Assembly (NCBI GenBank): GCA_012728835.1
Contig: JAAYEJ010000062.1
Location: 62,001 to 126,000 of the forward strand
Direction: 5' to 3'
Source: Candidatus Brocadiaceae bacterium
GTDB taxonomy: Bacteria > Planctomycetota > Brocadiia > SM23-32
DNA: 64,000 nt
Under the pieces are notes generated by a model. The model saw only the letters and a list, made by a program, of their open reading frames with translations, was not told the DNA's origin and made no database searches. This document shows, piece after piece, positions 4,125 through 16,178 of this stretch (its first letter is position 1; each line of letters starts with the position of its first letter). Position numbers and translations under genes: made by a program.

Positions 4125-4166
4125 CGCCGCGTCCCCGGACGCGGCCGCGTCCAGGGACGCGGCGTC
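4123..4166. terminator. Nested GC-rich hairpin between convergent genes
   Basis: Thirteen-base arms GACGCCGCGTCCC (4123-4135) and GGGACGCGGCGTC (4154-4166) enclose a 16-base perfect palindrome (4137-4152). It starts within the stop codon of the zinc-ribbon gene and touches the stop of the opposing RidA-like gene. There is no T tract, so it is a probable bidirectional hairpin terminator or mRNA end rather than a classical intrinsic terminator. Confidence 0.5.
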
Positions 4167-5334
4167 AGGGCGTCCGCGCCCTGGCGGCGATCCCGTCCAC
4201 CTCGAACAGCCAGTCGTCCCGGCACACGTCGGCACGCACGACGACCGCCGGCACGTCGGCCAGGCCGCTCTCTGCGCCCAGGGCCCGGAAGACGCCGTGG
4301 CCGTCGCCGTCCTTGAAGAACAGGGTGGCCTGGCAGATGTCGTCCAGCGAGACGCCCTCCTGGCCGATCAGTGAGCGCACGCTCTCGGCGGCGGACAGAA
4401 TCTGCCCGCGCACGTCCCCGACGTGCATCGTGCGCCCCTGCCGATCGACGGCGGCCGTGCCGGATATGTGTACCTGTTCCAGGTGCGGCTCGCGGATGCT
4501 CGCGCCGCGCGAGAACGCGGACCCGTAGCTGAAGGCGTCGGCCTGCCTGACGTTGCCCAGGAAGGACGTCCGCACCGCCGAGCCCTCCAGAGGCACCACC
4601 GCGACCACGTCCATCATGCACGCGGCCCCGTGCGCGTTGTCTCCCTCGATGCCGGTGCTGGCCGGCAGGCGCGGGCCGCGTTCGTCGGCCAGGCCCAGAC
4701 CCCCGTAGATCCGATTGCGCACGCCGTTGAACTCGTCGTACCACTCCAGGAGGCGCGAGAGGTAGATCCAGGTGCGCACGACGTGCGTGTAGTCGGCGCC
4801 CTCGGCCGCCAGGATCGCCTGCGTGCGCTGGAACATCCGCGCGGCCTGCTCGCCACGCGTCTGCCCGGCGATGCACGGCGCCTCCGCGCTCATGTCCTGC
4901 AGAATCAGGAAGCGCGCGCCGCTGCGCGTCCAGGCGCGGCCGCACGGCACGCCGCCCTCGCGGATCACCTCGACGCTGCTCTCGGGCGGTCGCACCAGAC
5001 GGAGCTGGACCCCCGCCAGGCCGTCGCCCCAGACCGGCCGGCCCTGCACGTAGGTCAGCGGGCCGTCGGGGTCGATCCCCTGCCGACCGAGCGCATCCCG
5101 GCGCGCGGCCAGGACGTCCGCGCGCACCGAAAGGCTGCCGAACACCCGTTCGTGCACGACGTGCATCCGCTGCGCCTTGGCCCGGGAGGCCAGCCGTTCG
5201 TAGAAGCGGCGGGCCGTCTCGCCCGCGCCGCCTCCGGCGGCCGTCACGGCCGCCGTGATGAACAGGTCGTCATCGCTCGGGCCGGCCAGGTGGACGGTCA
5301 ACGGCACGTCCTGCAGGGTTTCGCAACTGCGCAC
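4165..5334 (-). CDS. Tandem RidA-like (YjgF/YER057c) protein, possibly chorismatase-like
   Basis: A 389-residue protein that appears to hold two YjgF/RidA-fold halves. The first half is poorly conserved (residues 1-150). The second contains AEGADYTHVVRTWIYL, WYDEFNGVRNRIY, the ISGTAAVDRQGRTMHVGDVR segment and a RidA-like end (SLDDICQATLFFKDGD). Classical RidA proteins are about 130 residues and deaminate reactive enamines. Double-length relatives include the chorismatases (FkbO/Hyg5 type), which act on chorismate. Which group this belongs to cannot be settled here; the chorismate genes pabB and pabC are distant. The start is GTG at 5334: GGGAGG lies five bases upstream and there is no nearby ATG. 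It converges with the zinc-ribbon gene. Confidence 0.6.
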   Translation of the reverse strand: MRSCETLQDVPLTVHLAGPSDDDLFITAAVTAAGGGAGETARRFYERLASRAKAQRMHVVHERVFGSLSVRADVLAARRDALGRQGIDPDGPLTYVQGRPVWGDGLAGVQLRLVRPPESSVEVIREGGVPCGRAWTRSGARFLILQDMSAEAPCIAGQTRGEQAARMFQRTQAILAAEGADYTHVVRTWIYLSRLLEWYDEFNGVRNRIYGGLGLADERGPRLPASTGIEGDNAHGAACMMDVVAVVPLEGSAVRTSFLGNVRQADAFSYGSAFSRGASIREPHLEQVHISGTAAVDRQGRTMHVGDVRGQILSAAESVRSLIGQEGVSLDDICQATLFFKDGDGHGVFRALGAESGLADVPAVVVRADVCRDDWLFEVDGIAARARTP

Positions 5335-5474: not shown

Positions 5475-7055
5475 TCATCGGGCGCGCCAGGGCAGCCCGG
5501 CGTCCTCCGACTGGCCGGGCTCCTGCGTCTGCTGTGCGGTGGCCCCCGTCGTGGGGGCTGCGACGGCGTGCCACTCATCGTAACGGATCGCCCGGGCCAT
5601 CTCCTGGCCGCTCACCGGCAGAGGGCCGGTCAGAAACTCGGGGAACTGGTACATGTAACAGTGGGTGCCGTAGAACGCCGGATCCTTCTGGGGCAGGATG
5701 AACGGCTTGGACGCCTGTCCGGACTCGTCCACGTGGGCGAAGTAGGGCCGGATGAACACGCCGTCGTCCCGCTTGCTGCTGAAGACGATCCAGCGGCTGT
5801 TGCTGGACCACGAGTGCCGCGACTCGGCCCCCTCGCCGCTGCATGCCAGGCGCCGGACGCTCCCGTCGGCCAGCGACAGCACGTAGATGTCCGCGTCGGG
5901 CTGGAACGTGGGGAACACGCTGTGGTCCGACAGGCAGAAGGAGACGAACCGCCCGTCCGGCGACGGGCGCGGCTGGGTGATGCTGCCGCCCGCCTGATCG
6001 GCCGACAGCACGGTCTCGACCTGTCCCCATTCGTCGGCATCGACGTCGTAGGGGATGCGAACGAGGTCGTAGCGCAGGGCGGCGATCTGGTTGGCCGCGA
6101 GTTCGGCGACGTCCGGGGAGGGCGGCACCACGCGGCTGAAGTAGAGGTGCTTTCCGTCGGCCGACCACGCGGGGTAGGTCTCCAGTGCGTCGGGGCGGCT
6201 GATGGCGGCCGTGGCGGTCACGCGCCCCTCGTCGACAAGGTAGAGGGCGAGGTCGGACCGCATGTCGTACACCTCGCGCACCTCGGTGCGATGGCTGTGG
6301 AAGAACTGGCGGAACACGTCCATGGAGTAGGCGATGGCCCGCCCGCTCGGATGCCAGGAGCTGAGGGCCGCCAGCCCGATGCTCTGCGGGGTCTTCGTGT
6401 CCACCTTGGTGATGCGGCCGTCCTGGATGATGAGCATGCCGTGGCCGTATGGTTCCGCCCCGCTGCGCACCTGCACGAGCGCCGAGTCGGGCCGGCCGTT
6501 CAGGAAGCTGTGGCAGTTCATGCAGCCGCCGCCGGTCTGGTCGTTGTCCAGAAGCACGATGTCATCGTAGGAGGAGATGTCCCGCTGGCGCAGCCGCATC
6601 CGCCCCCAGAACATGTAGACGTAGCCAAGCTCGCGGTAGACGATATGGCTGTCGATCTCCTCCTGCGCGACGTGGATCTCGAACGGATCGAATCGCGTCC
6701 ATCCGCCGTCGGCGTCCTGCACGCTCACCTGCACGCGGATCGTGTCGCCGCGGGCGTCCTGGAGCAGCGCGCGCCACTCCCCCGCCGGCAGGACCGCCGC
6801 CCCCGCTTTCGTGCGAACCGCGAACGCCCGCCCGGACGCCGTGCGCAGTTCGACGCGGCCGAGACGCCCCGGCTCGGCCACCCGGAAGTTCAGCGGCGCG
6901 ATGTTCGGGGGCACGGTCACGCCGATGTAGTCGGGCTCGATCCTCGGCGGCCGCCCGGCAGGGCGTCCCTCGGGCGGGGTCCCGCCGCACCCGGCCGCCA
7001 GCATCGTGGACAGGAGCGCGCAGAGCGCCGCGAACAGGCATCGGGCAGGCATCAT
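5475..7055 (-). CDS. Haem-tagged (CxxCH) TolB-like beta-propeller lipoprotein, copy 1
   Basis: A 526-residue exported protein. Residues 1-23 form a lipoprotein signal (hydrophobic run ending LAAGC, Cys23). Residues 35-175 are a conserved non-propeller region with PPNIAPLNF and EEIDSHIVYREL. CMNCH at 178-182 is a covalent haem c attachment motif. The rest carries PD40/TolB-type propeller blades (SSWHPSGRAIAYS, YPAWSADGKHLYFS, SPDGRFVSFCLS, HSWSSNSRWIVFSSK). It should therefore be a periplasmic monohaem cytochrome with a propeller. From memory, unverified, similar uncharacterised proteins occur in Bacteroidota. Its ATG overlaps the TGA of the upstream membrane-protein gene (ATGA), so the two are translationally coupled. 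ResB and CcsA, which attach haem to CxxCH, are encoded at the head of the same operon. It is paralogous to 9003-10565. Function unknown. Confidence 0.8.
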   Translation of the reverse strand: MMPARCLFAALCALLSTMLAAGCGGTPPEGRPAGRPPRIEPDYIGVTVPPNIAPLNFRVAEPGRLGRVELRTASGRAFAVRTKAGAAVLPAGEWRALLQDARGDTIRVQVSVQDADGGWTRFDPFEIHVAQEEIDSHIVYRELGYVYMFWGRMRLRQRDISSYDDIVLLDNDQTGGGCMNCHSFLNGRPDSALVQVRSGAEPYGHGMLIIQDGRITKVDTKTPQSIGLAALSSWHPSGRAIAYSMDVFRQFFHSHRTEVREVYDMRSDLALYLVDEGRVTATAAISRPDALETYPAWSADGKHLYFSRVVPPSPDVAELAANQIAALRYDLVRIPYDVDADEWGQVETVLSADQAGGSITQPRPSPDGRFVSFCLSDHSVFPTFQPDADIYVLSLADGSVRRLACSGEGAESRHSWSSNSRWIVFSSKRDDGVFIRPYFAHVDESGQASKPFILPQKDPAFYGTHCYMYQFPEFLTGPLPVSGQEMARAIRYDEWHAVAAPTTGATAQQTQEPGQSEDAGLPWRAR

Positions 7056-8965
7056 CCGGCTCCCGGCTCGGGCTTCTGGAGGAACACGAGGTAGTAGTAG
7101 TAATAGTACGTGCCGACGTACGCGGCGGCGGCCCTCCGGGCGCGGCTCAGGTCCCCTCCGTGCCGCGCCGACGCGCTCAGGAAGGCGAACAGCCGCATCC
7201 GCGCCTCCTCGCCGACCTCCAGCCCCCCCAGGTCCACCGCCCGGGCGGCCTCCTGCTCGTACACGAGGATCGCCTCCTGGTAGTGCACGGGCAGGCGGGA
7301 GATGCCCAGCTCGGAGAGCCTCGGCATCCATTCGACGAAGCGGTCCAGCCGCTTGCCGGCCAGGTAGTGGGCCAGCAGGTAATCCAGGGCCATGCGGTCG
7401 AGCGGGTCCGCCTCGAGCTGCTCGAGCAGCATGGTCTCCAGGCTGGCGTGGCCCGGCCTGGGCCTCCTTTTGGCGACGGCGGCGCGCAGACGCCGCACCT
7501 CGGCGACGTCGGACAGCGAGGAGTCCCGCAGCATGCGTTCCTTCCACCGCCGTGCCCAGGTCCGGTGCACGGGGTCCTGGGCCAGCAGCCCCAACCACTT
7601 CAGGGCCACCCCGACCCGCTGCTTGACGGCATTCGTGAAGAACAGGTGCCGTATGAGCGCCGGGCGGCGCCCCAGCACCTCCAGGGCCTCCGCCCCCATC
7701 TGCTCGGACTCGTTGACGCGGCCGATGTCCAGCAGCAGACGGCTGCTCTTGGCGAACGCCATCGGATTGGCGCCTCTCAGCGCCCCGGCGTCCAGATGGA
7801 AGTCCTCCGTCACCGGCAGCACCGCGTCCGGCCGCTGAGGGAATGTGAACATCCTGTCTCCGAGGGCGCCGGTGAAACACAGGGCGCGGTTGACGTCCCA
7901 GAGCACATACACGTTGAAGTGGCCGATCGGCAGGCGGCGTGCTTCGCGAAGGACGTCCTCCCACCGGCCCTGCTGCGAGAGCACGTCGATCCGCATCCGG
8001 TCCCGCATGCTCGTGTCCAGCGTCCGGCCGAAGACGAGGCAGGCCGCCAGGGCCAGCGCCGCCGCCGAGGCCGCCAGCCCGGCTCTCGAGTTGGCCCCGC
8101 GGGCGATGGCTGCAGGCAGACGGAAGCGCCCCAACGGGCGCACAGCCGGCACGGCCGCCGTCAGCACACACAAGGCATACAGCACGCCTGCCGCCCGAAT
8201 CGACACCCAGTTCCTCATCGGCCATGCCGGCCAGAGATGCACGAACGCCTCTTCCCAGAACAGGCCGGCGGCCCGGACCCCCAGGCCCCAGGGCACCAGG
8301 AAGCCGCACGCCAGGCATGCGAGGCCCGCCCCGACCTGCCGGCGCGCCCTCAGCTCGTGCAGCGCGCACAGGACGGCGAAGAGCGCACAGAACCCGCCGG
8401 CCACCAGGAACAGCGCGACCGTCAGGATCAGGGCCGCCGCGAACCGTCCCCACCACCGTTGCCACGGCAGCGAGGCGTAGACCCAGGCCGCCGTGAGCGC
8501 CGCCAGCACGCCCAGGCCGATGGCCAGGTGATTCCAGTACCGCACGAACGGCCAGAGGAAGACCAGCCCCGGCAGCAGGTGCAGCATGCGCAGGCGGACG
8601 CCCGACGCGGTGCGCGCAAAGCCCCGTGTCGCCACGCACAGGAGCATGGCCAGGGCCGACACCACCAGCGCGGCACTCCAGTCCGCGTAGAAGACCTGGC
8701 CCAGGAAGGCGGACGCGTAGCCGAGCAGTCCGCCGGGCCGCATCGCCGACTCGAGGAAGAACGTCCGGCTCAGGCGGAACGCCGGGAGCGCGGCGGCCGC
8801 CCAGAAGCTGTGGTAGAGGAGGCTCAGGTCGACGTGCGCCTGGAAGTAGATGAACGCGACCGCCGAGAACAGGCAGACCGCCGGCGCCGCGATCCGGTCA
8901 CGCGCCTCGGGGAGTGCGGCGGCCCCCGCGTTCGCATTCGTCTGGTCGACCTTGTCTGTGCTCAT
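7052..8965 (-). CDS. Polytopic membrane protein with TPR-like C-terminal half (DUF6057-like), copy 1
   Basis: A 637-residue protein. Roughly residues 25-330 are hydrophobic, with about nine or ten membrane segments. The C-terminal half is soluble and helical, with repeat-like stretches (GRWEDVLREARRLP, GRVNESEQMGAEALEVLG, DYLLAHYLAGKRLDRFVEW). It ends in a striking aromatic cluster (YVGTYYYYYYLVFL) close to the C terminus. The arrangement resembles the uncharacterised DUF6057 family as I remember it; this was not searched. Its stop codon overlaps the start of the propeller gene 5475-7055, and the same gene pair recurs immediately upstream, so the two proteins very probably work together. Its role is unknown. 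The paralogue at 10562-12460 shares length, layout and the aromatic C-terminal cluster. Confidence 0.7.
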   Translation of the reverse strand: MSTDKVDQTNANAGAAALPEARDRIAAPAVCLFSAVAFIYFQAHVDLSLLYHSFWAAAALPAFRLSRTFFLESAMRPGGLLGYASAFLGQVFYADWSAALVVSALAMLLCVATRGFARTASGVRLRMLHLLPGLVFLWPFVRYWNHLAIGLGVLAALTAAWVYASLPWQRWWGRFAAALILTVALFLVAGGFCALFAVLCALHELRARRQVGAGLACLACGFLVPWGLGVRAAGLFWEEAFVHLWPAWPMRNWVSIRAAGVLYALCVLTAAVPAVRPLGRFRLPAAIARGANSRAGLAASAAALALAACLVFGRTLDTSMRDRMRIDVLSQQGRWEDVLREARRLPIGHFNVYVLWDVNRALCFTGALGDRMFTFPQRPDAVLPVTEDFHLDAGALRGANPMAFAKSSRLLLDIGRVNESEQMGAEALEVLGRRPALIRHLFFTNAVKQRVGVALKWLGLLAQDPVHRTWARRWKERMLRDSSLSDVAEVRRLRAAVAKRRPRPGHASLETMLLEQLEADPLDRMALDYLLAHYLAGKRLDRFVEWMPRLSELGISRLPVHYQEAILVYEQEAARAVDLGGLEVGEEARMRLFAFLSASARHGGDLSRARRAAAAYVGTYYYYYYLVFLQKPEPGAG

Positions 8966-9002
8966 GGCGTTCTCGCACGGCCGGCCCCTGCCGGGGCGGG
9001 TG

Positions 9003-10565
9003 CTACTGAGCGGGCCGCCACGTCTCGGCGGGCGGCGTCGCGGACGTCACGGGGATGTCCACCCCCGTCCACTGCTCCCTGCGGATCACGCGTGCTATCT
9101 GCTCGCCCCGCACGGGCACGGGCTCCCTGATCAGCTCCGGCAACTGGTAGAGTCGGATGCTGGAGTCGTAGAACCGGGGATCGCGCTGCGGAAGCACGAA
9201 CGGCTTGCAGACCACACCATCCTGACCAACATAACAGAAGGCGGGCCGTGTGAAAAGCCCGTCGCCCGCTTTGGTCGCGTAGGCCAGCCAGCGGCTGTTG
9301 GAGGACCAGGAGTGCCACGTCTCGGTCTGATCGCTGTTTCCCGGCAGCGGGCGCACGCGGCGGGTCGCCGTGTCCATGACGTACAGGTCGGCCTCGGGCT
9401 CCATGGCCGGGAACCCGCCATGCGGGCTCATGCAGATGACCAGGAACCGGCCGTCCGGCGATTCGCGCGGCAGCGTGATGCTCATGCCGGCCTCGGCCGC
9501 ACTCAGGACAACCTCCGGGTCGCCCCAGGTGTCCGTCGCGACGTCATACGGAATGCGCATGAGGTCATACATCGCGTCGGCGTAGTTGTCGGGAATCCGG
9601 TCGCCTTCCGGCGTCCAGGGCAACGGCGCGGTGCAGTAGTAGAGGTGCGTGCCGTCCGCTGACCACGACGGCCAGGTCTCCATCCGGTCGGGCCGGCAGA
9701 GGACCGGCCGCGAGCTGACCAGCCCGGAGTCCACCCGGTAGTAGGACAGGTTGGAGTTCAGGTCGATGCCCTCCCGGACCTCCTGGCGGCTGGAGTGGAA
9801 GAACTGGCGCACGGTGTTCGTGCTGAAGGCGACCACGCGGCCGCTCGGATGCCACGAGGAGAACGCCGCGAGCCCCGGGTCCCGCTCCGTGCGGGTGTTG
9901 ATCTTCGAGACCCGACCATCCTGGATCAGCAGCATGCCATGCCCGTGATCGACCTTCCCGCTTCGCATCTGGATCAGCATGCGGTCCGTCCCGTTGTTGA
10001 GGAACGTGTGGCAGTTCATGCAGCCGCGCCCGAAGGACCCGTTGTCCAGAATCAGCCGATCCGCGTACGATTCGAGATGCCGTTCCCGGATCTGCATGTG
10101 CGTGTAATAGTTGTATAAAACATTGATTCGCCGGTAGACGAGATAGGAGTCGATCGGCTCCTCAGCCACCAGGCTGTGGAGCGGCTCGAAACGCGTCCAT
10201 CGTCCGCCCGCGTCCAGAACAAAGGCCCGTATTTCCAGTGAACGCCCCCGGTTCTCTTCCAGGAGCCTGCGCCAGGAATGCAGGGAAAAGTCGAGGCCCC
10301 CGTCCTTGCTCCACGCGCGGATGGGCTCGCCCCGGTCTCCGTGTAACTCCACGACGAAGGCCGAGCCCTCTTCCTCCACAACGAAAGACGGTGCGGCGAT
10401 ATTCGGGGGGAACACTGTGCCGGCGTAGTCGGGGCGCAACTTCGGGGGACGACCAGCCGACTGGGGCTGCACCACTTTCGGGAAATCGTCCGGCAGCAGG
10501 CAGATGACGGCCGCGACAACTGCAGCGAGCGCTGCAAGCACAACTGCGCCACGCGTCCGACTCAT
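9003..10565 (-). CDS. Haem-tagged (CxxCH) TolB-like beta-propeller protein, copy 2
   Basis: A 520-residue paralogue of 5475-7055, with the same blocks in the same order: PPNIAAPSF (about 53-61), EEPIDSYLVYRRI (about 135-148), the haem motif CMNCH at 182-186, then propeller blades (SSWHPSGRVVAFS, WPSWSADGTHLYYC, SPDGRFLVICMS, HSWSSNSRWLAYATK). It differs at the N terminus: a single hydrophobic segment (residues 7-24) without a good lipobox, so it is probably anchored by an uncleaved helix rather than by lipid. The start at 10565 overlaps the stop of the upstream membrane gene (ATGA), exactly as in copy 1. Copies 1 and 2 differ at many positions, so the duplication is not recent. Expected location is the periplasmic face of the cytoplasmic membrane. 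Confidence 0.8.
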   Translation of the reverse strand: MSRTRGAVVLAALAAVVAAVICLLPDDFPKVVQPQSAGRPPKLRPDYAGTVFPPNIAAPSFVVEEEGSAFVVELHGDRGEPIRAWSKDGGLDFSLHSWRRLLEENRGRSLEIRAFVLDAGGRWTRFEPLHSLVAEEPIDSYLVYRRINVLYNYYTHMQIRERHLESYADRLILDNGSFGRGCMNCHTFLNNGTDRMLIQMRSGKVDHGHGMLLIQDGRVSKINTRTERDPGLAAFSSWHPSGRVVAFSTNTVRQFFHSSRQEVREGIDLNSNLSYYRVDSGLVSSRPVLCRPDRMETWPSWSADGTHLYYCTAPLPWTPEGDRIPDNYADAMYDLMRIPYDVATDTWGDPEVVLSAAEAGMSITLPRESPDGRFLVICMSPHGGFPAMEPEADLYVMDTATRRVRPLPGNSDQTETWHSWSSNSRWLAYATKAGDGLFTRPAFCYVGQDGVVCKPFVLPQRDPRFYDSSIRLYQLPELIREPVPVRGEQIARVIRREQWTGVDIPVTSATPPAETWRPAQ

Positions 10566-12460
10566 TCCACGGGCTCCGGCGGCAGGACAAAGAAGTAGTA
10601 GAACATGTAGCTGTCTGCGAAGTCGGCGAGGGCCTTCATACGGCTGAGGCGCGTCCTCGCGCCCGCCATCGCACGCCGGAATGCTTCGAAACGCTCCTGG
10701 GTGCGCGCACTGATTCGCAGGCCGTTCATTTCGGGCATCTGCCCCGTCCGCACGGCGTAGAGCAGCAGCGCTTCCTCGAAGTGCCTCGGCACCGATCGAT
10801 AGCCGACCTCGCCCAGCCGCGCGAACTCCCGCACGCAGTCCCCCAGCCTGCCGTAGATCAGGTAGCGCGCCAGCAGGTACTCGTAGGCCATTCGGTTCCC
10901 GGGGTTCCGGCTCAGCAGCCGCTTGAGGGCGTCTTCGACGTGGCCCCATTGGGCCACGTTCTCCGTCACGCGCAGTTCCCGCAGACGCGCCACGAACGGA
11001 TCCTGCGAGAGGTCCGGGTCCGTCCTCATCCGTCGCAGCATGCTCCTTGCCCGCCGGCCGTAGACGGGATCTCGGCTCAGGGCGCCCAGCAGGATCCGGG
11101 CCGCCTCCGTGCGTCCCTTGGCCAGGTTACAGAACATCATCACCTCGAGCAGGCGCGGATGGCTGCCTCTGGTCTCGATGGCCTCGCAGGCCATGTGCTC
11201 CGCCTCGTTTACGAGTCCAAGGTCCAGAAGCATCTCGCTCGAGGCGACCCAGGCACGGTGCCGCAGCACCTGACTCGGCACGATGTCCTTACACAGCATG
11301 TGCCCGACGGGGTCCTGCTCGTAGGCGAACATCCCGTCGGCAAGCTCCCCCAGGTGGAAGAGCGCCCGGTTGAGCTGCGAGTTGACGAACAGGTAGTCCA
11401 GCGGATTGAACGCCCCGCGGGAGGCGTTCTTCACGACCTTCGGCCAGTTGCGCCGGGACGCGTGGTAGTCGACCGCCGTCTGCGCCTTCATCGCCCCGTC
11501 GTGGGCGAGCACGACGGCGACGGCCAGCATCGCCAGCGCAGCGACACCGGCGATGGGCCGACGGCGGCCCGCACGGCGAAGGCGCCCGGCCGCGTAGGCC
11601 GCCACGGCCGCTGCAGGGAAGAACGCGTAGAGCACGAGGCGCAACGCCTCGCTCCGCAGCACGAGCGGCACGGCGTTGTCCGGGGTCAGCGCAAACTCGT
11701 GGAAGGGCAGCAGGCGGCGGTAGGCGTCGGCCGTTCCGGCGTGCGGCCACAGGAGCCCCAGCGCGTACGGCATCGCCGCCCCCAGCACCAGCACGGCCGG
11801 AGCGAGCCGTCGCCGGCCCCCGGCGGTCAGTTCGTAGAGTGTGCACAGCGCCGCGTAGACCAGCACCGCCCCGGCGGCGATCGAGTGCAGCAGCGCCAGC
11901 AGGAGCACGAACACGCCCAGCCGTCGAGGGGGCGTCGCGCCGCCCTTCGTGACGTAGACGGCGGCCCCGCCCAGCACCAGCGCCAGCGCCAGCATCGGAC
12001 GCAGCGGGTCGTAGTAGAAGCCATAGAGGAGCAGCAGCGGGAAGACCGGCACCAGGTGCAGCAGGCGCGGGGGCTCGCCGGCAAACGCCCTGAGCAGCAC
12101 GAACGCCTCCAGGCAGAGCAGGGCCATCAGCCCGGTGATGATCACGGCCCCCAGCCATGCGATCTGGTGGTACTGGCTCAGGAGGGCCGCCGCATACTCG
12201 GTCAGCCCGCCGGGAAGGAACAGGAAATCGCCCAGGAAGCGCGTTCCCCAGCGGAAGACGGGCACGCCCGGGGAGAGCGCCGGCTGAACCCAGTGGGCCT
12301 GGAAGACGAGGGCGGGGTTGACGCGCAGGTAGACGTACGCGAAGACGGCGGCGAAGAACGCGGCCCAGACGCGGGGCCATGCACCGGGCCGCGCCGGAGC
12401 GGCCGGGGGCTCCCGGTCGCCTCCGGCCGGAGTGAGTCGCTCTGGTCGTGCCGTCCTCAT
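10562..12460 (-). CDS. Polytopic membrane protein with TPR-like C-terminal half (DUF6057-like), copy 2
   Basis: A 632-residue paralogue of 7052-8965. It has a hydrophobic N-terminal half with about ten membrane segments, then a helical domain with matching stretches (NRALFHLGELADGMFAYEQD, GLVNEAEHMACEAIETRG, YEYLLARYLIYGRLGDCVRE), and an aromatic C-terminal patch (SYMFYYFFVLPPEP). The ATG at 12460 gives a protein of nearly the same length as copy 1. The frame stays open further upstream, but that extension is Arg/Gly/His-rich and looks non-coding. A 172-base gap separates it from ccsA. No catalytic motif was recognised. Conservation of the pair suggests a membrane partner for the haem propeller, perhaps an assembly or electron-transfer partner; this is inference. 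Confidence 0.7.
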   Translation of the reverse strand: MRTARPERLTPAGGDREPPAAPARPGAWPRVWAAFFAAVFAYVYLRVNPALVFQAHWVQPALSPGVPVFRWGTRFLGDFLFLPGGLTEYAAALLSQYHQIAWLGAVIITGLMALLCLEAFVLLRAFAGEPPRLLHLVPVFPLLLLYGFYYDPLRPMLALALVLGGAAVYVTKGGATPPRRLGVFVLLLALLHSIAAGAVLVYAALCTLYELTAGGRRRLAPAVLVLGAAMPYALGLLWPHAGTADAYRRLLPFHEFALTPDNAVPLVLRSEALRLVLYAFFPAAAVAAYAAGRLRRAGRRRPIAGVAALAMLAVAVVLAHDGAMKAQTAVDYHASRRNWPKVVKNASRGAFNPLDYLFVNSQLNRALFHLGELADGMFAYEQDPVGHMLCKDIVPSQVLRHRAWVASSEMLLDLGLVNEAEHMACEAIETRGSHPRLLEVMMFCNLAKGRTEAARILLGALSRDPVYGRRARSMLRRMRTDPDLSQDPFVARLRELRVTENVAQWGHVEDALKRLLSRNPGNRMAYEYLLARYLIYGRLGDCVREFARLGEVGYRSVPRHFEEALLLYAVRTGQMPEMNGLRISARTQERFEAFRRAMAGARTRLSRMKALADFADSYMFYYFFVLPPEPVE

Positions 12461-12632
12461 GTGCACCCGTCGGTCGCTCGGACTCCCGAGATGGCGGTCA
12501 TGTCTCCGGCCGTCGTCGGCCCCTGGGGCCGGCACGTGCGCGGCGACCGATCCACAGCCGCCGCGGGGCCGATGATACCACAGGCGTCCGCGCGCGGGCA
12601 ACCGGCCGGCCGATCGGCGCCGAGGGCCGGGT

Positions 12633-13412
12633 TCAGGACGCGTAGCTGTGCAGCCCGGCGAAGACGCGTGCCAGGTTCGCCCACAGCAGCGTGGCCGCGA
12701 TGGTGCCGCAGCCGGCCAGGACGAATGCCGCGTTCGCGCGGCGGCGTGCGCCCCCCGTCAGGCGACGCCACTGGAAGTAGCCCACGTAGACCAGCCACAT
12801 GGCCAGCGCCCAGAGTTCCTTCGGGTCCCAGTTCCAGTAGTCGCCCCAGGCGCGCTGCCCCCAGACGGACCCCAGCACCAGCCCGAGCGTCAGCAGCGGG
12901 AACCCGAAGCGGGCCAGGCGATGTGCTCCCTCGTCCGCCCGGGCATCCGTGCCGCCGGATGCCAGCACGCGCACTGACTGCACCCCGGCGCGCAACATCA
13001 CCAGATAGCCCGCCAGGTAGGCCAGGATGTGCGGCCCGAACAGCCGGCTCCGGAGTATGGGCGGCAGCGGCAGCGGCGCCGGGTCGAACACGAACGCCAC
13101 GGGCACCAGGAAGAGCGCGGCCATCAGCGCGTCCTCGCCCCGCCCCGGCACCCTCAGCCGCCGCTCGAAGAAGGCCGAGAGCGGATAGCAGAGCGTCGCC
13201 ATGCAGAGGAACACCTCGAAGAGGTTCTTCATCGGCGTGTGCCCCACGGCCGTCCACCGCACGGCCACGGCCGCCAGCAGCAGACCGAACCCCGCCCGGA
13301 ACAGCCAGGTGCCTGCCGGCCGCCGGCCCGCAAACCACGCCGCAGCAGCGCCTGTGCAGGCCACCAGTGCGGCGGCGGCCAGTCGGCTCGCCCAGTAGCC
13401 CTCAGGGTCCAT
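12633..13412 (-). CDS. ccsA: Cytochrome c synthase subunit CcsA (CcmC/CcsA family)
   Basis: CcsA and ResB form the System II cytochrome c synthase, which carries haem across the membrane and ligates it to CxxCH proteins. The 259-residue protein has about eight hydrophobic segments, the tryptophan-rich haem-handling motif (WGDYWNWDPKELW, residues 189-201), and the conserved histidines: His58 in VGHTPMKN, His128 in GPHILAYL and His256 in GLHSY. Its start overlaps the resB stop by 11 bases, indicating coupled translation. Placement directly upstream of two genes for CxxCH proteins suggests that these are its substrates. Confidence 0.9.
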   Translation of the reverse strand: MDPEGYWASRLAAAALVACTGAAAAWFAGRRPAGTWLFRAGFGLLLAAVAVRWTAVGHTPMKNLFEVFLCMATLCYPLSAFFERRLRVPGRGEDALMAALFLVPVAFVFDPAPLPLPPILRSRLFGPHILAYLAGYLVMLRAGVQSVRVLASGGTDARADEGAHRLARFGFPLLTLGLVLGSVWGQRAWGDYWNWDPKELWALAMWLVYVGYFQWRRLTGGARRRANAAFVLAGCGTIAATLLWANLARVFAGLHSYAS

Positions 13413-14115
13413 CGGCGCCCCCTCCCCCGCCGGACGGCGCCGGCAGGAGCCAGAAGTGCAGGAACACGCCCGTGCACAGCAGCAGCATCCCCGCGTAGAC
13501 GGCGAACAGCCCGCGATCCGACTTGGCCCTCAGCATCACGTAGTCCCCGCGCTCCCAGCCTCCGCCCTGCAGGCTGAACTGGTAGCCGCCGTGCCGCAGC
13601 GGCCGGTTCATCGCGACGGATGCCCGGCAGACGTCCCGCCCGCCGCTGACGACGGCCACGTCCGCGGCATACTCCCGCACGGCCCCGCCGGCCGGGTCGG
13701 CGTCCACGCGGACCGTGTGGCACACGAGATGGAAGGGTAGGCGGGCGATCCTGTGCTCGAATCCGTGGCTGAACACATCGTCGCAGAGCCGCCCGCGCGG
13801 CAGGAACAGGTAGCCGTCCACCGGTGCAGGCCATCCCAGCAGGCGCTCCGCCAGCCGGCGCCCGGAGGCCGAGCCCCAGAGCCCTCCGGCCAGGATGAAC
13901 GCGGCCCCGAGCAGGGCCACCCTCCGGGCCACTCCCCTGCCGACGACGGCCCGCCCGAGCAGCCACAGAGCGCCCGCGCTCCAGAAGGCCCCCATCGGCC
14001 AGGAGTTGAACAGCCTCCGCGCCCGTTCCGGGCCCAGAAACGCGCCCACGACGCACAGGGCGGCGAGGCTCGCCACCCCGCCCAGCTCCACGGCCTGCAC
14101 CGGCCTTCGGTCCAT
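13402..14115 (-). CDS. resB: ResB/Ccs1-like cytochrome c biogenesis protein (short form)
   Basis: ResB (Ccs1) partners with CcsA in System II cytochrome c maturation. This 237-residue version is short, as is usual when ResB and CcsA are separate small proteins. There are about three hydrophobic segments in the first 90 residues, a soluble region with ARLPFHLVCHTVRVD and the typical ResB block MNRPLRHGGYQFSLQG, and a last membrane helix (FAVYAGMLLLCTGVFLHFWL). The ATG at 14115 was chosen over an in-frame start at 14154 because AAGGGG stands just upstream and because the promoter at 14142-14170 makes the longer start impossible. It heads the operon resB-ccsA-membrane-propeller-membrane-propeller. 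Confidence 0.85.
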   Translation of the reverse strand: MDRRPVQAVELGGVASLAALCVVGAFLGPERARRLFNSWPMGAFWSAGALWLLGRAVVGRGVARRVALLGAAFILAGGLWGSASGRRLAERLLGWPAPVDGYLFLPRGRLCDDVFSHGFEHRIARLPFHLVCHTVRVDADPAGGAVREYAADVAVVSGGRDVCRASVAMNRPLRHGGYQFSLQGGGWERGDYVMLRAKSDRGLFAVYAGMLLLCTGVFLHFWLLPAPSGGGGGADGP

Positions 14116-14141: not shown

Positions 14142-14170
14142 GTTGTACCGGCACGCCGCAGCACGGTCAA
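14142..14170 (-). promoter_or_regulatory. Promoter of the cytochrome maturation/haem-propeller operon
   Basis: On the minus strand TTGACC (14165-14170) and TACAAC (14142-14147) are 17 bases apart. Transcription should start near 14135, 20 bases before the resB ATG. No comparable promoter was seen between the six genes downstream. Confidence 0.65.
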
Positions 14171-14308: not shown

Positions 14309-15301
14309 ATGCAGCACGTGAAGAGCGAGTTCGCCAGGGGCTCCTGGCTCACCTACCGGCCGGACATCAAGATACTGGACTGCACCGTCCGCGACGGCGG
14401 TCTGATCAACAACCACCGTTTCGACGACGACTTCGTGCGGGCCGTCTACCGGACCTGCGTCGACGCCGGCGTGGACTACATGGAGATGGGCTACAAGGGC
14501 GCCAAGAGCATCTACCCGACCGACGAGTTCGGCCCCTGGAAGCACTGCGACGAGGAAGACCTGCGTCGCATCGTCGGCGACAACGAGACGGACCTGAAGA
14601 TCTCCGTCATGGCCGATGCCGAACGCTGCGACTACGAGGCGGACATCCTGCCGAAGTCCGAGAGCGTCATCGACGCCATCCGCGTGGCCTGCTACATCCA
14701 CCAGATCCCGGTTGCGCTGGACATGATCCGGGACGCACATGAGAAGGGCTACGAGGTCGTCCTTCAGCTCATGGCGGTCTCCGTGATTGCGGAACGCGAA
14801 CTCGACCAGGCCCTGCAGATCGTCGCGGAGACGCCGGTGACGACCATCTACCTGGTCGACAGCTTCGGGGCGCTCTACTCGGAGCAGGTGCGCGACCTGG
14901 TCGTGACCTACATGAAGGCCGTGGAGGGCAAGGGCAAGGAGATCGGCATCCATGCGCACAACAACCAGCAGCTCGCCTACGCCAACACCATCGAGGCGCT
15001 GATCCACGGCGCGAGCCGGCTGGACGCGACGCTGCACGGCATGGGCCGCGGCGCCGGCAACTGCGCCACCGAGCTGCTGCTCGGGTTCCTGAAGAACCCG
15101 AAGTTCCACCTCCGCCCCGTGCTCAAGTGCATCCAGGAGCACCTGTTGCCGCTGAAGGAGCAGATGGAGTGGGGGCCGAGCATCCCGTACATCATCACGG
15201 GCCAGCTCAACCGCCACCCGCGCGCGGCCATCGCGATGCGACAGGGCGAGGACCCGGACGATTACGTTCGCTTCTACGACCAGATGACCGAGGAGGAGTA
15301 G
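14309..15301 (+). CDS. HMGL-like TIM-barrel aldolase/lyase (4-hydroxy-2-oxovalerate aldolase type)
   Basis: A 330-residue member of the DRE-TIM metallolyase group, which includes 4-hydroxy-2-oxovalerate aldolase, HMG-CoA lyase and isopropylmalate synthase. The diagnostic DCTVRDGG motif is near residue 20, followed by VDYMEMGYKGAK, YLVDSFGALY and the metal-binding HAHNN pair near residue 215, then GMGRGAGNCATE. Such enzymes use a divalent metal to cleave or form a C-C bond next to a carbonyl. The usual partner acetaldehyde dehydrogenase is absent, so the classical meta-cleavage role is doubtful. AGGAG seven bases before the ATG fixes the start. An amidohydrolase gene follows 61 bases later and may share the pathway. 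Confidence 0.8.
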   Translation: MQHVKSEFARGSWLTYRPDIKILDCTVRDGGLINNHRFDDDFVRAVYRTCVDAGVDYMEMGYKGAKSIYPTDEFGPWKHCDEEDLRRIVGDNETDLKISVMADAERCDYEADILPKSESVIDAIRVACYIHQIPVALDMIRDAHEKGYEVVLQLMAVSVIAERELDQALQIVAETPVTTIYLVDSFGALYSEQVRDLVVTYMKAVEGKGKEIGIHAHNNQQLAYANTIEALIHGASRLDATLHGMGRGAGNCATELLLGFLKNPKFHLRPVLKCIQEHLLPLKEQMEWGPSIPYIITGQLNRHPRAAIAMRQGEDPDDYVRFYDQMTEEE

Positions 15302-15362
15302 CGCCCGGCGCGCACGCGCGCTCCCCGCTCCCGCCTCGACACCGTCTCCGGAGGATCACCTC

Positions 15363-16178
15363 ATGACCAAGCGCCCGATCATCGACGCCCACCATCACGT
15401 GGGCGACGAGGCCTACGCCGACCGCCTCGCCGCCGTGTGCGAGAAGCTCGGCATCGTCAAGGTCTGCCTGGTGGCGACCAACGTGCCCGATTCCCCCCGG
15501 GACAACAACGCCAACACGAAGCGCGCCTTCGAGAAGTACCCCGACCTGTTCGTGGGCTTCGGCGGCGTCAACATGTGGCAGGACGACGGCGCCGACCAGG
15601 TCCAGCGGCTCCACGACGAGGGCTTCCGCGGGCTGAAGTTCATCATCCCGCCGAAGCCCTACCACGACCCGTCCTACGATCCCATCTACGCGAAGGCGCA
15701 GGAACTGGGCATGATCGCCCTCTTCCACCTGGGCATCGTGGCCCGGCACGTCACGCGCAACCTGCGCACCGACAACAACCTGATGCGGCCGGTCTACCTG
15801 GACACGATCGCGCGGAGCTTCCCCGAGCTGACCATCATCGGCGCGCACCTGGGCAATCCGTGGTATGAAGAAGCCACCATGTCCTGCCGCTGGAACCCGA
15901 ACCTCTACTTCGACCTGTCCGGCTCGACCTTGAAGAAGAAGTCGCCGCAGTTCCTCAAGGAACTCCTCTGGTGGACGCCGACGACCTTCTACGGCGACGT
16001 CGAGGGGCGCTACGCCTGGGAGAAGATCGTCTTCGGCAGCGACGTCGGCCCGGACTACGTCAAGGACGTGCTCCACGACTACGAGCAGACCATGGAAGCG
16101 ATCAACCTGCCGCCCGAGATGCGCCACCAGGTGCTCTACGGAACCATGGCGCGCATCCTGGGCCTGGAGGACGCCTGA
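15363..16178 (+). CDS. Amidohydrolase-2 family metal-dependent hydrolase
   Basis: A 271-residue TIM-barrel hydrolase/decarboxylase. Visible metal-site elements are the N-terminal DAHHH (residues 8-12), His in LFHLGIV, His in IGAHLGNPWYEE and Asp in FGSDVGPDYV near the end. Members act on lactones or amides, or decarboxylate aromatic acids. GGAGG precedes the ATG. It follows the aldolase-like gene and is probably cotranscribed with it. A second relative in the window, 24598-25404, shares the blocks HPMHLDTLAR-like/YLDTIARSF and NPWYEE/GPWYEE, so the two are paralogues. The substrate is unknown. Confidence 0.8.
   Translation: MTKRPIIDAHHHVGDEAYADRLAAVCEKLGIVKVCLVATNVPDSPRDNNANTKRAFEKYPDLFVGFGGVNMWQDDGADQVQRLHDEGFRGLKFIIPPKPYHDPSYDPIYAKAQELGMIALFHLGIVARHVTRNLRTDNNLMRPVYLDTIARSFPELTIIGAHLGNPWYEEATMSCRWNPNLYFDLSGSTLKKKSPQFLKELLWWTPTTFYGDVEGRYAWEKIVFGSDVGPDYVKDVLHDYEQTMEAINLPPEMRHQVLYGTMARILGLEDA

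Follow-up and report, generated by a model that had tools for sequence, protein, structure and literature searches.

What does a cytochrome c synthase do beside duplicated propeller and membrane proteins, and do these genes form a system of their own? This question arose from a locus in the window, the 64-kb stretch of DNA that we analyzed, which has a GC content of 70% and comes from a 3.07-Mb assembly that is 97% complete. The sequence-only reading of the window placed six minus-strand genes at 5475-14115, and all six ORFs were found: resB (13402..14115), ccsA (12633..13412), and then twice a DUF6057 membrane-TPR gene followed by a propeller gene. The first pair consists of DUF6057-1 (10562..12460) and propeller-1 (9003..10565), the second of DUF6057-2 (7052..8965) and propeller-2 (5475..7055), all on the minus strand. 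Coding sequences overlap by a few bases at the resB/ccsA, DUF6057-1/propeller-1 and DUF6057-2/propeller-2 junctions. Between ccsA and DUF6057-1 there are 172 bp of intergenic DNA containing a sigma70-like match, and thus two transcription units are possible. The run had been taken to end at 5475, which proved too short, as a same-strand chorismatase-like gene (4165..5334, minus strand) comes 140 bp further on. Beyond resB, genes for an HMGL-like aldolase (14309..15301, plus strand; PF00682, 9.8e-27) and an amidohydrolase (both within 14309-16178) are transcribed away from resB; the aldolase gene, which is divergent, can be assigned to the system weakly. A close relative of it adjoins the chorismatase-like gene in an Aminicenantes MAG (locus L021), as detected by an HMM scan of the loci.

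A contig scan detected propeller relatives in 20 loci from Planctomycetota, Armatimonadota, Aminicenantes, Deltaproteobacteria, Kiritimatiellales, and Bacteroidales. DUF6057 adjoined the propeller in 18 of them, and in the two exceptions (L023 and L030) the contig ended directly upstream of the propeller. ResB/CcsA, which had been read as part of the core, were next to the pair in 0/20 of these homologous loci. This first scan relied on a CxNCH pattern, and because of that bias the test was redone starting from DUF6057 alone. DUF6057 was detected in 21 of 198 Bacteroidales genomes, which bears out the suggestion that Bacteroidota have similar genes, and a propeller adjoined it in 26/30 of the loci found in this way. 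Two of the other four loci were contig ends (L087 and L088), and two, L122 and L124 (extended versions of L082 and L099), had no propeller gene next to DUF6057. The DUF6057 gene without an adjacent propeller is followed by a hybrid two-component sensor in L122 (9179-11056) and by an 854-aa protein with zero Pfam matches in L124 (7502-9346). The conserved unit is DUF6057 plus propeller, and this partnership recurs across distant bacteria.

Both propellers matched PD40 (4.9e-11 for propeller-1, the model of which had a pLDDT of 87.9, and 1.2e-13 for propeller-2). Both have a hydrophobic N-terminus; a canonical lipobox is absent from that of propeller-1, and propeller-2 is a lipoprotein with the lipobox LAAGC. 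Each contains one CxxCH, in agreement with the earlier claim. The motif is CMNCH in both, at residues 182-186 of propeller-1 (10008..10022, minus strand; predicted to be a haem site from the motif and the homologue alignment) and at residues 178-182 of propeller-2 (6510..6524, minus strand; predicted from the motif). The strict pattern TGYATGAAYTGYCAC occurred twice genome-wide, both times at these sites. Zero further CxxCH matches were found on either strand of the window, for which no other obvious cytochrome had been noted.

The haem assignment hinges on conservation of the CMNCH cysteines among homologues. CxNCH was present in 26/26 propellers from the contig scan, in every propeller ORF of the DUF6057-found loci long enough to span the site, and in 55/55 homologues when loci found via DUF6057 alone were included. 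Both Cys and the His of the motif were invariant in these 55 family members. In a tree of the 55 members, the tandem pairs of L032 and L086 were independent in origin from the tandem pairs of the window. CxNCH lies directly N-terminal to the first PD40 (SPDG-type) blade motif, suggesting that the haem is probably on or in the propeller. Both propellers are exported and carry a conserved CxxCH, as is characteristic of c-type cytochromes.

We compared the propellers with known propeller and haem proteins. In HZS alpha, the haem domains are C-terminal to the propeller (PMC12758564). HZS alpha/HzsA-related proteins (PF18582) resemble the window propellers in being exported, in combining a beta-propeller with haem c (predicted here), and, for HzsA-related genes, in having a chorismatase-like neighbour. 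Unlike HZS alpha, the window propellers have a single CxNCH ahead of the PD40 motifs, and neither matched PF18582 at E<=1. Cytochrome cd1 nitrite reductase, which also combines haem with a beta-propeller, appeared among the Foldseek matches; these were generic, with a TM-score of about 0.3, and a PF02239 (Cytochrom_D1) match was absent at E<=1. TolB/PD40 propellers share the PD40 blades but have no haem site, and the window propellers scored 30.6 and 22.2 bits against TIGR02800, compared with a cut-off of 343. A PDB search with a single propeller sequence found no relative, and one with the propeller profile returned generic TolB-type matches only.

The putative synthase contains both System II subunits and the WWD motif, but its ResB is short. 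ResB (PF05140, 3.6e-12) starts at an ATG, a GTG at 14154 also being possible; residues 86-197 match about 100 of the 486 model positions, and three hydropathy peaks were above the threshold. CcsA, the haem lyase subunit, contains WGDYWNWD and matched PF01578 (4.1e-28), and its TIGR03144 match (3.5e-36) was under the family cut-off. The source genome has exactly one PF01578 gene, the ccsA of this operon. A wide occurrence of homologues in genomes without a maturation system had been named as evidence against haem attachment; instead, PF01578 was detected in 21/22 and 20/21 pair-bearing genomes, and the haem assignment thus withstands this check as well as that of motif conservation. Within Bacteroidales, it was present in 20/21 DUF6057 genomes vs 134/177 others (154/198 overall; Fisher p 0.029).

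The source genome appears to encode three credible haem-c proteins, the two propellers and a propeller-TPR homologue. This count is based on a CxxCH census at the DNA level, which gave 68 sites compared with 129 for the reversed control and covered the CxxCH spacing alone, not CxxCK or longer spacings, by a pattern search and by inspection of the DNA stretches around the other 65 sites. Coding sites elsewhere were in cytoplasmic or metal-binding proteins, named by eye and not by family search (valyl-tRNA synthetase, hydrogenase-type subunits, NrdR, NrdD, zinc ribbons, RecR, L31 and similar). A further site was in an esterase-like protein with CDVCH, an implausible haem position. Thus, CcsA/ResB have no credible substrate in this genome outside the three propeller-family proteins. 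The conservation of CxNCH, the co-occurrence of PF01578, and the census all support the proposal of the sequence-only reading that the propellers are probably c-type haem proteins, with one haem each, and that CcsA/ResB are the likely synthase. Alternatively, the Cys pair could be haem-free, forming structural cysteines or a metal site, with ResB/CcsA as a chance neighbour. That ResB is short and that ResB/CcsA are not adjacent in other loci would fit, but the invariant His and Cys residues, the nearly constant presence of CcsA in the genome, and the lack of another credible substrate for CcsA in the source genome make this very improbable.

Both membrane proteins are full-length members of DUF6057 (PF19529; 6.6e-77 for DUF6057-1 and 3.3e-76 for DUF6057-2), a family whose function is not known and of which no mention was found in the literature searched. 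They scored 257.8 and 260.1 bits against a cut-off of 29.8 and covered model positions 8-568 of 569. Hydropathy analysis indicated seven membrane segments per copy, and the AlphaFold model (pLDDT 86 for DUF6057-1) and a fold search identified the C-terminus as a TPR-like helical domain. Loop charges peaked in the loop preceding the last membrane segment. This topology and charge distribution suggest that the TPR domain is periplasmic and serves as the docking site of the propeller. The homologue alignment showed zero invariant charged residues in the membrane half, which counts against DUF6057 being an enzyme. A GT-C glycosyltransferase was suspected from the topology and rejected, given this lack of invariant charged residues and the absence of such proteins among the 50 matches listed. 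The fold search with the membrane domain returned TPR-type proteins only, at E values of at least 0.012. In L021 (4039-7914), one frame fuses a MacB-like periplasmic core domain to DUF6057, which is either a fusion or an annotation artefact.

Propeller and TPRs also occur in a single protein. In the phylum of the window, proteins of about 850-1000 aa share the N-terminal domain of the short propellers and have C[AG]NCH and PD40 blades, with TPRs after these; their alignment with the short propellers spans the whole length. The third member in the source genome (L107, 9225-11771, on contig C49) is one exported protein that combines an Ig-like domain, CGNCH, the propeller and TPRs.

The gene at 4165..5334 matched PF01042 (5.1e-14) and, under the cut-off, PF21168 (2.7e-4). 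A profile of seven homologues matched Hyg5 (5ag3) at 2.3e-41 and FkbO (4bps) at 3.1e-31. Residues C371, R372, L376, and E378 of a CR..L.E segment were invariant in the seven homologues and aligned to Hyg5 CRxxLLxE, the Cys and Glu of which we take to be catalytic. Against TIGR04444, the protein scored 42.4 bits and the best homologue tested 155.7, compared with a cut-off of 325, and it is therefore called chorismatase-like only. Judged by these matches, the product resembles a chorismatase-superfamily enzyme with the FkbO/Hyg5 fold, and chorismate is its predicted substrate. It shares the profile match and the CR..L.E residues with the FkbO/Hyg5/XanB2 chorismatases, but the window-type gene sits with cytochromes instead of a PKS or pigment cluster, and its product is under the TIGR04444 cut-off.

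The chorismatase-like gene adjoins the pair in Aminicenantes (L021), Armatimonadota (L024), Deltaproteobacteria (L028), and Bacteroidales (L110 and L119). It also adjoins DUF6057 on a short contig (L191/G414) and is one gene away from it in L122; in L021, shikimate-pathway genes, read by eye, come after it. It was present in 20/22 pair genomes. Among Bacteroidales, the full-length gene was detected in 19/21 DUF6057 genomes vs 11/177 others (odds ratio 143, Fisher p 7e-17), short RidA-like matches below 75 bits being left out. In the phylum of the window, 31/246 genomes had the gene, comprising 7/8 of those with a CxNCH propeller vs 24/238 others (p 2e-6); these co-occurrence tests ignore phylogeny and were made in two separate taxa. 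The gene also occurs without propellers, in 11 Bacteroidales and 24 phylum genomes, which speaks against a tie between the two. Two chorismatase-like genes have one in-frame stop each (G377:C23:142430-143578 and G288:C69:15342-16514), as a pseudogene or an assembly error. The six genes had been described as self-contained, and this description is not supported; the chorismatase-like gene is the strongest genomic partner found.

The chorismatase-like gene was also located beside other cytochromes. In Bacteroidales loci, picked partly for a nearby ccsA, it is found beside ResB-CcsA fusions with DHOR, imelysin and porin genes, or with HZS_alpha proteins. Four loci (L181, L182, L183, and L187) combine it with a ResB-CcsA fusion and a two-CxxCH protein; according to Pfam, L181 and L182 also contain imelysin, and L181 has Porin_O_P and DHOR as well. 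HZS_alpha cytochromes are beside the gene in L185 (7629-11018), L196 (2705-6367), L260 (7949-11050), and L270 (2700-6077), which are from Bacteroidales and other genomes and some of which have ResB-CcsA. Among 17 phylum loci picked solely for the chorismatase-like gene, a neighbouring ORF with at least two CxxCH was present in 10/17, compared with 0/17 for the reversed motif, although the host bacteria may be cytochrome-rich and the background is then not zero. The families in these loci include HZS_alpha, CCP_MauG-type, and PSCyt2. A link between a chorismatase and cytochromes c was not found in the literature searched.

The clusters with DHOR, imelysin and porin genes could point to iron or haem acquisition, with a phenolic or catecholic ligand as the product of the chorismatase-like enzyme and with reduction of ferric iron by the haem proteins. 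A role in iron uptake has been proposed for imelysin-like proteins (PMC3143127). However, none of the loci examined had an identified imelysin gene near the DUF6057-propeller pair, and no siderophore assembly genes were seen in these loci. We consider this explanation rather improbable.

Our preferred explanation, which we hold tentatively and at slightly less than an even chance, is that the locus encodes a periplasmic haem-c system that serves a non-respiratory purpose and is coupled to a chorismate-derived aromatic compound. Haem would be translocated by CcsA/ResB, and one haem would be attached to the CxNCH of each propeller, a step that is strongly supported; there it would probably sit on or in the propeller. 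DUF6057 may be a membrane anchor or adaptor whose periplasmic TPR domain docks the propeller, a role suggested by the constant gene pairing and by the homologues with propeller and TPR in one exported protein. The cytoplasmic chorismatase-like enzyme would turn chorismate into a hydroxybenzoate-type aromatic, which the haem protein would use as redox partner or substrate. This last step is suggested by co-occurrence and adjacency only, and a gene for further processing of the aromatic product was not consistently adjacent in the loci examined. An aromatic partner would explain most simply why a chorismatase-like enzyme of the cytoplasm is associated with exported haem-c proteins of several unrelated families.

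The main rivals arise from the iron-related clusters described above and from the carbohydrate context of the Bacteroidales copies. Many Bacteroidales pairs lie beside SusCD, GH2 or HTCS genes, which suggests a carbohydrate link and counts against the aromatic-coupled system. As a PUL-associated module, the haem-c propeller and DUF6057 could transfer electrons for the oxidation or uptake of sugars in the periplasm, with the chorismatase-like gene as a separate lifestyle marker. TonB receptor/SusD, GH2 and HTCS genes beside the pairs in L111, L112, L113, L116, and L122 support this, as do sugar-related families, recognised by eye only, near several Planctomycetota copies. However, no sugar enzyme is a constant neighbour, several pairs (for example in L025, L029, and L034) having none in the stretch read by eye, and the link with the chorismatase-like gene is statistically far tighter. 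Thus, we regard a sugar-related role as unlikely. The HTCS next to one copy (L122) would also suit a sensor formed by the haem propeller and DUF6057, with the aromatic product as a diffusible signal. There is a precedent in the chorismatase XanB2, to which a reference cited by PMC7170507 ascribes synthesis of the diffusible factor. DUF6057 matched zero signalling domains in Pfam and no regulator gene adjoins the pair consistently, and a sensor is accordingly quite improbable.

The aromatic-coupled system may extend beyond this locus. It is possible, though doubtful, that a whole set of exported haem-c proteins outside respiration receives a dedicated aromatic redox partner or cofactor from the chorismatase-like family. 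That set might comprise CxNCH propeller-DUF6057 and propeller-TPR proteins, HzsA-related proteins and di-haem oxidoreductases in Bacteroidota, Planctomycetota, and others. If true, this would be periplasmic redox chemistry so far undescribed. DUF6057, a family present in gut Bacteroidales and so far without an assigned role, gains a context in which function can be tested, and the propellers define a class of c-type cytochrome on a PD40 propeller, with the haem predicted. The results tie a chorismatase-like enzyme to cytochromes c, and the source genome is unusual in that it seems to retain System II for the sake of a single protein family.
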